A DNA stretch of 64,000 bases from Bacteroidetes bacterium ADurb.Bin008 (lineage in GTDB: Bacteria > Bacteroidota > Bacteroidia > Bacteroidales > Tenuifilaceae): assembly GCA_002071445.1 (NCBI GenBank), contig MWFE01000010.1, forward strand, positions 1 to 64,000, in the 5' to 3' direction. Each line of letters starts with the position of its first letter. Positions within the stretch are counted from its first letter, which is position 1. The position numbers were made by a program, and so were the translations under genes. Below the pieces are notes generated by a model that had not been told where the DNA came from, made no database searches, and was given only the letters and a program-made list of their open reading frames with translations. Below, piece after piece: positions 39,698-42,493 of the stretch.

Positions 39698-41209
39698 ATG
39701 GCAAAAAAGGGAAACACGGAGGATAAACGAAAAGAACCACGTTTTTATATGAAGTTAGCCATTGAGGCCATGAAAAGGTCGGTGGATGAACTCAATAAAG
39801 ATGCGCCCAGCCCAAAAGTTGGGGCAGTTCTTGTTTTCCCTGATGGGACCTACGAAACGGCATATCGTGGTGAATACCGGGATGGCGACCATTCAGAATA
39901 TACTCTGCTGGATAAGAAATTCAGAACCAAAGATTTGTCAGATTGCTGGCTTTTTGCCACCCTGGAACCCTGTGGCCCTAAGACCAGAAGCGAGAAGAAA
40001 ACCTGCTGTGCAGAAAGAATTGGGAATGCCCGTATTAAAAAAGTATGGTATGGCGTTCAGGAGCTAAATTCAAAAGCCAAAGGAGGCAAGAAACTTCTTG
40101 AAGAAAAATACAAAGCTGAGGTTCTTCCATTTGACCTTGATTTACACAGGGAAATACTATCTTTTAATAAAGAATTTAACGATTGGGTGGAGGAAGAGAA
40201 CCGGAAACAAATAGATGCCATTAATACTGTTACCGGTCCATTGCAAAAAACAATTAAAAACACTGATATTAGTTTTCTTTCAGAAGATGCCCTTGAACTT
40301 TATTTATCCAAAACAGGGAAAGAGTTTGCTTATGATTCAGATGATTTAAAAAATGACCTGATAAGTAAAGATTTACTTGAGGTGGATGAGAAAACAGGTG
40401 AAGTAAGGCCAACCGGTGATTGTATTTTGTTGTTTGGTAAAAATCCACGCGATAAATTTCCACAGGCTTCCGTTAAAGCAAAGGTTGACTATGGCGGAGG
40501 ACAAGAACCCGATGCTGAAAGTTTTGATGATGCACTTGTTCTGATTCCAGACAAGGTAGAGGAATGGGTAAAAAAAGTGATTCCGGAAAGCATGGACAGA
40601 TCAAGTTTTACAAGAGAAAAGGTATCCCATTTTCCCACTGCTGTAATTCGTGAAGCCATTATCAATGCAATAATTCACCGTGATTACGGTAACAAACGTG
40701 CAAAAGTAGAACTGGAAATAACCCCTGAAAAAATTGAAGTTCGTAGCCCGGGAGAACCAATTTCTCCAAACACGCTGAAGGACTTACAAAACTTCACCGC
40801 TATTTCACAAACCCGTAACCCTGAATTGGCTTACATATTTAACCTGATGAAATTCATGGAGGAAACAGGTGTTGGAATGGACACCTATAGAACAATGAGA
40901 GAGAAGTTTAATCTTCCATTACCTGTCATTACATATCAGAAATCAAACCTAATTGTCACATTCCCAAGGACAATGGAAGCATTTAGGAAGGTTAGTAATG
41001 AGGCTATTAAAGGACTTTCAGTTGAAGAACTTAACGGTTTCGAATGGATAAAAAGTAGAGGAGAAGTATCTGCTAAAGCATATACTATTCAATTCGGCAT
41101 AACTTCTAGAACTACTAGCAGACATCTTAGTAAAATGCTTGATCTTGGTCTTATTGAGACTAATGGAGAAAAACCTAAATCACCGAAATTGAGATACCGT
41201 GCAACATAG
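39698..41209 (+). CDS. Deaminase / GHKL-ATPase (HATPase_c_4) / winged-helix fusion
   Basis: A 503-aa protein. Residues about 10-150 form a CDA-fold deaminase of the RibD/CMP-deaminase kind: H65 and E67 in GDHSEYTLLD, C92 in LEPCGPKT and C103/C104 as the last zinc ligand. Residues about 180-300 contain the linker usually found after AlbA_2/Schlafen domains (CILLFGKNPRDKFPQASVK). Residues about 310-410 form an HATPase_c_4 domain with the N-box E319/N323 (REAIINAIIHRDYGNK), VRSPGEPISPNTL and EETGVGMDTYR. The last ~75 residues form a winged helix (GITSRTTSRHLSKMLDLGLIE). The deaminase stands where the AlbA_2 domain normally is. The substrate (free nucleotide, nucleic acid or ribityl-pyrimidine) is unknown. 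RibD-like riboflavin synthesis is unlikely because no reductase domain is present. Confidence 0.85.
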   Translation: MAKKGNTEDKRKEPRFYMKLAIEAMKRSVDELNKDAPSPKVGAVLVFPDGTYETAYRGEYRDGDHSEYTLLDKKFRTKDLSDCWLFATLEPCGPKTRSEKKTCCAERIGNARIKKVWYGVQELNSKAKGGKKLLEEKYKAEVLPFDLDLHREILSFNKEFNDWVEEENRKQIDAINTVTGPLQKTIKNTDISFLSEDALELYLSKTGKEFAYDSDDLKNDLISKDLLEVDEKTGEVRPTGDCILLFGKNPRDKFPQASVKAKVDYGGGQEPDAESFDDALVLIPDKVEEWVKKVIPESMDRSSFTREKVSHFPTAVIREAIINAIIHRDYGNKRAKVELEITPEKIEVRSPGEPISPNTLKDLQNFTAISQTRNPELAYIFNLMKFMEETGVGMDTYRTMREKFNLPLPVITYQKSNLIVTFPRTMEAFRKVSNEAIKGLSVEELNGFEWIKSRGEVSAKAYTIQFGITSRTTSRHLSKMLDLGLIETNGEKPKSPKLRYRAT

Positions 41210-41299
41210 ACAAGAAGATAGTCGTGATGTCTATGTAAGAGGTAATAAAGATGGTAATAATGCTAAACATAGACAATAACATGGACATGCTGTCTATGT
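41204..41299. repeat. Two inverted repeats ACATAGAC-N17-GTCTATGT
   Basis: Copy one is 41204-41211 with 41229-41236, copy two 41267-41274 with 41292-41299. Both have perfect 8-bp arms and 17-base spacers, and they start 63 bases apart (about six helical turns). The first spans the stop codon of the deaminase fusion. They could be twin operator sites, hairpins, or a tandem duplication; flanking bases are also partly alike (AGAGGTAA/CGAGGAAA). Confidence 0.7.
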
Positions 41300-41608
41300 T
41301 CGAGGAAATTGAGATGCTACTTTAGCTTAAAAAGTGAGGAATTACTAATGAAGTTGAGCATAAACTTGGTCATAGTACCAAAATTTGATTTAAATAAGGA
41401 TAACATCTGAGTTAAGATATGACAAGAAGTTGGACATTGTGTCCAAGTAAGTCAAATAAGTAATGAAATAGCTGATGCACGAACTAAAGGAGAATATAAA
41501 CATAGAACTATTGGAACTGCAGTGGACGGCTTTTTTATACTGCCGCTCAATTCCTGCTTCTGCCGTACAAAAAATGCTATGATTGAGAAAATGAGAAAAT
41601 AATTTTGA
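41210..41608. other. Non-coding gap with relic-like sequence and a palindrome
   Basis: About 400 AT-rich bases between the deaminase fusion and the Fic gene. Besides the twin repeats it has TTGGACA-TTG-TGTCCAA at 41430-41446, a perfect 7-bp dyad. Short stretches read like decayed coding sequence (e.g. frames giving EIADARTKGEYKHRT) but are cut by stops in every frame, so I call no gene. Confidence 0.45.
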
Positions 41609-42493
41609 ATGCCGATGAATAGCCAACACAAAATATCCATTCGTTTTTTCAACGACCGTGAAGTGCGTGCAGTTTGGGATGATGATAATGCCAAGTGGTG
41701 GTTTTCGGTATTGGATATTGTGGGTATTCTCAATGAAGAGGCGGATTATACAAAAAGTCGCAACTATTGGAAATACCTGAAAACCAAATTAAAGAGAGAA
41801 AGAAACGAACTGGTTAGTGACACTACCCAGTTGAAATTGCTTGCTCCTGATGGAAAAAAACGATTAACGGATACCTTAGACAGCAATGGGGTAATCGAAC
41901 TGGCAAAGCATTTCCCCAACAATAGAGCAATGAAATTTTTGGATTGGTTTCTTTACAGCGACACCAGCATAGACGGACAAAGCAAGAAAAAAGCCTACAC
42001 CCTTTTTGAGAGCAATTTGATCAATGAGTTTGAAGTGGGCACTACTAAGGGCTTACAGCAAATACATGCTTATTTGTTTGGAGGCTCATACGACTTTGCC
42101 GGAAAAATACGTCAGAAAAATATTTCAAAAGGAGGTTTTCAATTTGCTGTTTCTCATTTTTTGGGGGATACTTTAAAACAAATTGATGCTATGCCCGAAA
42201 CTAATTTTGATGAGATTGTCGAAAAGTATATTGAAATGAACATAGCCCATCCCTTCATGGAAGGCAACGGCAGAAGCACCCGAATATGGCTGGATATGAT
42301 TTTTAGAAAACGCCTAAAAAAATGTGTGGATTGGAGCAGGATAGGTAAACGCGATTACATGGAGGCCATGATGCTTAGCCCCACAAAAAGCGAAATGCTG
42401 AAACAGCTTTTAAAGCATGCTTTAACCAATAAAATCAATGATCGTGAAATGTTTATGAAGGGCATTGATTACTCCTATTACTACGAAGAATGA
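41609..42493 (+). CDS. BRO-N / Fic fusion, putative AMPylator
   Basis: A 294-aa protein. Residues about 8-110 form a BRO-N domain (VRAVWDDDNAKWWFSVLDIV ... LTDTLDSNGVIELAKHF), which in phages usually binds DNA in antirepressors. Residues about 130-294 form a Fic domain with the catalytic motif HPFMEGNGR at 214-222 (H214), typical of AMP transfer to target hydroxyls. The C-terminus ends in SYYYEE (S289, E293), matching the class III inhibitory motif (S/T)xxxE(G/N) of small Fic proteins like that of Neisseria meningitidis except for the last residue. Activity would be held back by the inhibitory Glu. No separate antitoxin gene is seen. Confidence 0.87.
   Translation: MPMNSQHKISIRFFNDREVRAVWDDDNAKWWFSVLDIVGILNEEADYTKSRNYWKYLKTKLKRERNELVSDTTQLKLLAPDGKKRLTDTLDSNGVIELAKHFPNNRAMKFLDWFLYSDTSIDGQSKKKAYTLFESNLINEFEVGTTKGLQQIHAYLFGGSYDFAGKIRQKNISKGGFQFAVSHFLGDTLKQIDAMPETNFDEIVEKYIEMNIAHPFMEGNGRSTRIWLDMIFRKRLKKCVDWSRIGKRDYMEAMMLSPTKSEMLKQLLKHALTNKINDREMFMKGIDYSYYYEE

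Follow-up and report, generated by a model that had tools for sequence, protein, structure and literature searches.

What is a zinc deaminase doing at the head of a Schlafen-type ATPase, and which DNA does the other end of the protein read? These questions are raised by an intact open frame that spans exactly 39698-41209 (+) of the window, the 64,000-nucleotide stretch of DNA analysed, and encodes 503 aa. An earlier note on this DNA described the product as a deaminase fused to a Schlafen-type GHKL ATPase module. This description is borne out by Pfam, by fold matches of an AlphaFold2 model and by recurrence of the fusion in dozens of genomes. The RibD-type deaminase head occupies residues 15-160 (39740..40177, +; Pfam, alignment and fold match), with dCMP_cyt_deam_1 (PF00383) matching residues 15-119 (1.5e-10, 41 bits against a cutoff of 25). 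The GHKL-type ATPase core (40652..40963, +; Pfam, alignment and fold match) matches HATPase_c_4 at residues 335-422 (4e-14, 52.8 bits against a cutoff of 26) and contains an N-box (E319..N323..H327-R328-D329-Y330), SPG at 350-352, RN at 373-374 and E388/G393. Residues 436-503 (41003..41206, +) form an exchangeable C-terminal winged-helix (wHTH) tail, defined by identity comparison, the model, covariation and tree tests; Pfam gives only weak HTH matches here. Its recognition helix, residues 470-482, is encoded at 41105-41143 (+) and the specificity residues 474-475 at 41117-41122 (+).

The AlphaFold2 model has a mean pLDDT of 87 and a pTM of 0.62. Its head matches the RibD deaminases 2hxv and 4g3m, and its body matches 3lmm (DIP2311), followed by histidine kinases. 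Sequence profiles agree: RibD deaminases are nearest among solved structures to the head profile built from a deep alignment (1e-16), and 3lmm is nearest to the body profile, so that the structure comparison proposed in the earlier note gives RibD for the head and 3lmm for the body. With a domain above cutoff and ligands of the HxE...PCxxC type, the head is a predicted member of the CMP/dCMP-type zinc deaminase superfamily. The remainder is a Schlafen-type GHKL-wHTH body, having HATPase_c_4 with an N-box, then a wHTH, and a fold match to 3lmm. In Schlafen-type relatives that came up in the same searches, AlbA_2 takes up residues ~5-120 ahead of this body (nine relatives carry AlbA_2 plus HATPase_c_4), and PF04326 (AlbA_2) is absent from the fusion protein by Pfam. 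The deaminase therefore replaces the AlbA_2 head, as had been claimed, and the protein would not be classed as a Schlafen-type AlbA_2 protein. The PADLOC model Aga_SIR2-PNTD1-PNTD2 matches the shared GHKL-type region (2.4e-16); no PADLOC defence model covers the whole protein, and the partial matches are to the shared body only. A deaminase is thus added to the heads known on the Schlafen-type ATPase body. There is no mention of a deaminase on such a body, or of the 3' array described below, in the freely readable journal papers searched.

RibD, the bifunctional riboflavin deaminase/reductase, is the nearest solved deaminase to the head by both sequence profile and fold, but identity with RibD was rejected. 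TIGR00326 scores 34 bits against a cutoff of 156, over residues 30-137 only, and the reductase is missing, as the earlier note had also observed. In addition, the fusion differs from RibD in its longer inter-cysteine loop with conserved R97 and K101 and in its RGExRxGDHAE motif. A separate gene of the same genome, on a different contig (L002:796-1884), encodes a complete RibD and scores 290 bits (cutoff 156).

The fusion belongs to a real and widespread family, with 53 distinct relatives in many phyla. Relatives, full-length or partial, were found in 13 of 295 genomes of the order (E<=1e-20) and in 8 of 395 genomes of a phylum sample (E<=1e-30), the genome of origin being included in both counts. 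Single-sequence scans of genome and viral collections gave no match; an alignment-based scan succeeded and yielded ~45 further loci in many phyla, where the phyla are those of record titles, which may be wrong for metagenome bins, and some genomes are counted again. The conservation alignment comprised the 53 distinct relatives and the window protein (54 rows). H65, E67, C92 and C104 (codons 39890-39892, 39896-39898, 39971-39973 and 40007-40009, +; assigned by alignment) are unchanged wherever the alignment has a residue in those columns (52-53 of 54 rows). The same is true of R97 and K101 and, in the ATPase, of E319, N323, H327 and R328, and R57 and R61 are further conserved residues of the head. 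The full set of zinc ligands previously proposed is therefore present in the relatives, and because position 103 varies, the fourth ligand, formerly given as C103 or C104, is C104. The invariance of the ligands and ATPase positions indicates that the deaminase is under selection as an enzyme. A head that is inactive and conserved only as a fold, as the earlier note had considered, is contradicted by catalytic residues that are invariant over 53 distinct relatives. Other arrangements of the parts also occur: in L033 (80-802, +) the ATPase body is missing and the wHTH tail directly follows the deaminase head, and at L083:8078-10846 and L084:9837-11331 the deaminase and the ATPase-wHTH are separate genes.

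The most unusual parts are the swapped tail and an array 3' of the gene, neither of which the earlier note had seen. The family array consists of two to three elements of ~31 bp with the form H1-N4-H2-N3-rc(H), placed directly after the stop codon or overlapping it. In the window, element 1 (CATAGACA-AGAA-GATAGTCG-TGA-TGTCTATG; 41205..41235, +) overlaps the stop codon and element 2 (CATAGACA-ATAA-CATGGACA-TGC-TGTCTATG; 41268..41298, +) begins 63 bp after element 1. Half-sites within an element are about one helical turn apart, and the first two elements are 62 or 63 bp apart (six helical turns) in 26 of the 30 loci with two. The best array score reached at least 20 in 40 of the 53 downstream regions, in no upstream region (maximum 18) and in 2 of 530 shuffles. 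Half-sites number 15.5 per kb downstream, 0.9 upstream and 0.7 elsewhere. Loci that fall below the strict form often carry variants. Some have a CGCCA-type element of slightly shorter spacing; by eye, the element is reversed in L057, L065 has direct repeats only, and L051, L076, L077 and L085 have other arrangements.

The elements are closely tied to the gene. Exact sites occur in the genome of origin only at 41205 and 41268, and no other site has fewer than two mismatches. A wider regulon was therefore rejected for this genome, where the sole close site is the gene's own 3' array. Across ~900 kb of fusion loci there were 54 elements at the gene and one spurious element elsewhere, and none was present in 155 kb of control DNA or 548 kb of Schlafen loci. 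Exact patterns were found at 5 and 11 places in 395 and 295 whole genomes, respectively; 15 of these 16 places adjoin the 3' end of a fusion gene; the sixteenth is a decayed remnant in G217. Generic genomic repeats were rejected as an explanation, exact elements being confined, in these whole genomes, to the 3' end of this gene family. The element predicts the gene, so such systems can be found from DNA alone. The canonical array was not found at 51 Schlafen-headed relatives. Five Schlafen-type loci (L094, L096, L097, L105 and L122) have direct repeats of other spacing at or just after the stop codon, for example TTGCACAT in L097. As 3' direct repeats are present in only some Schlafen-headed relatives, the array is not required for the body in general.

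The half-site varies between relatives, having changed at least 27 times on the body tree, and it tracks the tail given the body (partial Mantel r 0.37, p 2e-4) rather than the body given the tail (partial Mantel 0.07, p 0.10). Residue 475 varies with base 6 of the site, R occurring with A and N or Y with C (Fisher 3.7e-7); the exceptions are five cases of R, all with CGCCA-type sites, and a single L where the base is A. Residue 474 varies with base 4: R with G, M with T, S with A or C, and L mostly with C. For the pairs 474-4 and 475-6 the permutation p is 5e-5, a value that ignores relatedness. Independent pairs, which allow for relatedness, agree in 5 of 5, ~3.4 of 4 and ~3.6 of 4 cases, with none contrary in the three tests, each of which is too small for significance. 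In the G217 remnant, which was found by element and tail, the helix KTAQR is paired with the element CTTGGACA, a pairing that the residue-base code predicts. Residues 495 and 492 at the tail end also rank high by mutual information and probably mark tail type rather than contact. Taken together, covariation, geometry and exclusivity make binding of the wHTH to its own array the best supported step of the mechanism that we propose. The earlier suggestion of an ATP-dependent, DNA-reading body agrees with an N-box that is invariant and with a recognition helix that covaries with the half-site.

The last ~70 residues, the wHTH, have been exchanged repeatedly. The window protein and L022 are 93% identical in the head and 93% in the body but 40% in the tail, whereas L022 and L034 are 54% identical in the head, 34% in the body and 88% in the tail. 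Similarly, the window protein shares 76% identity with L026/L048 in the tail and only 45% in the body. There is a sharp break in DNA identity near codon 434, or near codon 421 in L034/L029/L052. Tail data rejected the body clades in four of five AU tests (p-AU 6e-4, 2e-44, 1e-4 and 7e-3); in the fifth, they do not reject the clade L043/L045. Old arrays left behind are traces of these exchanges. In the window, what is left of an older, now degenerate CTTGG-type element (CTTGGTCA-TAG-TACCAAAA) lies at 41365..41383 (+) and, ~64 bp after it, a remnant of an older CTTGGACA-type element (..TGACAAGAAGTTGGACATTGTGTCCAAG) at 41417..41448 (+), which matches the tail-linked array of L022; both are identified by sequence. 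In L022, two window-type CATAGACA elements remain behind its own CTTGGACA array, at +160 and +223. A search of the window's own genome for a silent spare tail found none. A DprA-like gene adjoins the same tail type in two genomes (L034:10836-11318 and L022:17220-17687), as if it had moved together with the tail-array cassette.

With its sites placed immediately behind the wHTH codons, the tail can be transferred together with them as a single cassette, and DNA specificity can therefore change while self-recognition is retained. This amounts to a modular rule, in which a DNA-binding tail and its own sites travel together 3' of the gene with a readable, and hence directly testable, residue-to-base code. 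On sequence evidence, we give an even chance to the following reading: the protein would be a stress or anti-phage effector in which a Schlafen-type GHKL-wHTH body carries a zinc deaminase as toxic head and is directed to its own locus by an exchangeable cassette of tail plus operator. The wHTH would bind array DNA with several protomers side by side, as suggested by three half-sites per ~31-bp element about one turn apart and by elements six turns apart; protomers so placed would leave the protein parked on its own locus. While it is parked, the GHKL domain would hold the deaminase off, and binding would plausibly keep the effector under control at its locus. The later steps are the weakest. 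Infection might free or re-group the protein, the cue being perhaps failure of a nearby restriction system, breakdown of host DNA or phage sites competing for the wHTH, and the freed deaminase might then deplete or corrupt the nucleotide pool or edit nucleic acid, stopping phage growth. Release by infection and ruin of the nucleotide pool are speculative, and action against phages, the substrate and ATP hydrolysis are all matters that we infer.

wHTH proteins commonly repress their own operons, and in L036, L037, L039, L055, L056 and L064 the array separates the fusion gene from hsdR. The wHTH on the 3' array might accordingly control transcription, by a roadblock, an antisense promoter or an effect on a downstream restriction gene, with the deaminase governed by its amount and not by parking. 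We regard such autoregulation as possible but on the whole unlikely: the array is 3' of the gene and never upstream, where the best score is 18, the genome of origin has no second site at fewer than two mismatches, and some loci with an array have the following gene on the other strand (e.g. L042, L049, L058, L071 and L081). Because arrays also precede oppositely oriented genes, a promoter operator for the next gene was rejected as the only function. Elsewhere, wHTH and GHKL domains serve in regulation, and the closest match of the head is a metabolic enzyme, RibD; both points would suit a one-component regulator whose deaminase fold senses or trims a nucleotide while the ATPase-wHTH regulates genes, without toxicity. 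This is highly improbable, however, since there is no regulon beyond the gene's own 3' array, the sole close genomic site, and since occurrence in scattered genomes (13 of the 295 from the order), module exchange and siting among defence genes are atypical of a housekeeping regulator. That the arrays are recombination sites driving cassette exchange, and not operators, is scarcely credible: old arrays do remain after exchanges, but the left breaks fall inside the gene at codons 421-434, where there is no element, and the covariation with recognition residues is left unexplained.

The remaining alternative is that repeat hairpins in a transcribed 3' UTR act as an RNA antitoxin, as in type III toxin-antitoxin systems, holding the deaminase off until loss of transcription on infection frees the toxin. 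There is a precedent in AvcID, where the dC-deaminase toxin AvcD is held off by the RNA antitoxin AvcI (PMC10511110). As there, a zinc deaminase is the presumed anti-phage effector and tandem repeats are adjacent, and the arrays fold as RNA better than shuffles (z -3.3 to -5.6). The available part of that source reports neither GHKL nor wHTH for AvcD, and, compared with the AvcID repeats described in it, those of the fusion lie 3' and look like DNA operators for its own wHTH. The details of the array also argue for DNA. The half-site follows residues of the DNA-recognition helix; H1 and H2, 87% alike, repeat in the same direction at a distance of 12 bp, which a hairpin does not explain; mismatches between H2 and H3 are G-U compatible in only 17 of 66 cases; and the 62-63 bp spacing of six helical turns is kept across divergent linkers. 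Additionally, the reversed element of L057 and the direct repeats of L065 would not suit a hairpin, and the array has no match in Rfam. An RNA antitoxin therefore seems decidedly improbable to us.

The element also occurs in viruses. Away from the gene family it was found only in uncultivated viral contigs (IMG/VR): two patterns match at least 120 contigs each and a third matches 43, and no viral contig matches when one or two extra bases are placed between H1 and H2. The viral copies have the same H-12-H-11-rc(H) geometry and the same half-site classes and are mostly on T4-like contigs. Among the matches listed, the element is 3' of an SSB-like (gp32) gene in ~89 T4-like contigs, the nearest known matches being ssDNA-binding proteins of Synechococcus phages. 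In another T4-like group, 71 contigs among the matches listed, it lies 3' of a gene that we read as a ribonucleotide reductase and upstream of a baseplate-wedge-like gene. In many of the viral loci L165-L430 (e.g. L310, L238, L223 and L205) the element occurs singly, and the genes that have it on their 3' side also include a class II reductase-like one (L223) and a GroEL-like one (L205). Terminators end in a T-run; such a run follows many viral elements but only 2 of 71 fusion-array elements. When reductase loci were found by the gene end and not by the element, 3 of 109 carried it, so that the reductase set is weak as independent evidence and may be one clade, and of the SSB-like loci, 16 were taken without such selection and one of them scores at least 20. 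The element is thus uncommon without selection for it, suggesting that many viral matches share descent. A 111-base query did not find the viral element in cultured phages, and no protein in the viral loci compared matched the tail or full-length profile. The viral copies may be decoys, targets or unrelated terminators. It is rather doubtful, in our estimation, that the array is a self password copied by phages, with viral copies as decoys that would keep the effector self-bound or as targets that it would sense, and with the repeated exchange of tail and array as the mark of an arms race for a DNA address. Functional viral copies would point to a sequence-addressed self/non-self check in bacterial immunity.

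The genomic company of the family supports the earlier suggestion of a defence or stress effector. Homologues do not lie in riboflavin loci, the outcome that would have spoken against this suggestion; about half of the 53 relatives are among defence genes, with restriction-modification, Argonaute, Dnd or DUF1156/DUF499 genes, and about half have no recognised defence gene within 8 kb, a count in which small flanks and unknown genes work against detection. Type I restriction genes are near 15 of the 53, frequently in the order hsdS-fusion-hsdR as one operon (L036-L039, L055, L056 and L064). Type III restriction genes are near three relatives (L066, L072 and L082), Eco57I-like enzymes near L027, L034 and L057, a Piwi protein beside two (L043 and L044), DndC near L024 (338 bits), DUF1156/DUF499 genes near two (L075 and L079) and AlbA_2 proteins near L044 and L046. 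Among 98 immediate neighbours, 7 match one type I nuclease model of PADLOC and 6 a specificity model, whereas each PADLOC family matches at most one of 92 control proteins, which were drawn only from genomes of the genome-set search and only partially matched to the relatives.

Siting between restriction subunits is shared with PrrC, an accessory toxin embedded in type I restriction operons, and with other accessory toxins of such operons (PMC12707154), and would suit a presumed back-up effector (L036-L039, L055, L056 and L064). The domains of the fusion are unrelated to those of PrrC, however, and its neighbours also include type III, Argonaute and Dnd systems. The two relatives beside a Piwi gene recall the SIR2-Schlafen proteins of Argonaute operons (PMC6299218), which share the GHKL-type region under another effector head but differ in that head, SIR2, and in their partners. 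Schlafen RNase-minimal kinase-wHTH proteins occur with BREX (PMC12839542). Schlafen-type proteins have the GHKL body, C-terminal wHTH and defence-island company in common with the fusion; they carry an AlbA_2/Schlafen RNase head, in contrast with its RibD-type deaminase head and, in most relatives, canonical 3' array.

The window copy itself is in no obvious defence island and has no flanking restriction genes. Around it lie genes for a histidine kinase and an outer-membrane protein, a lipoprotein-like gene and a Bro-N/Fic gene. The last of these (41609-42493, +), 400 bp downstream of the fusion gene, encodes a Bro-N domain fused to a Fic domain, and a Bro-N/Fic-like gene is found again near two relatives, L045 and L078.
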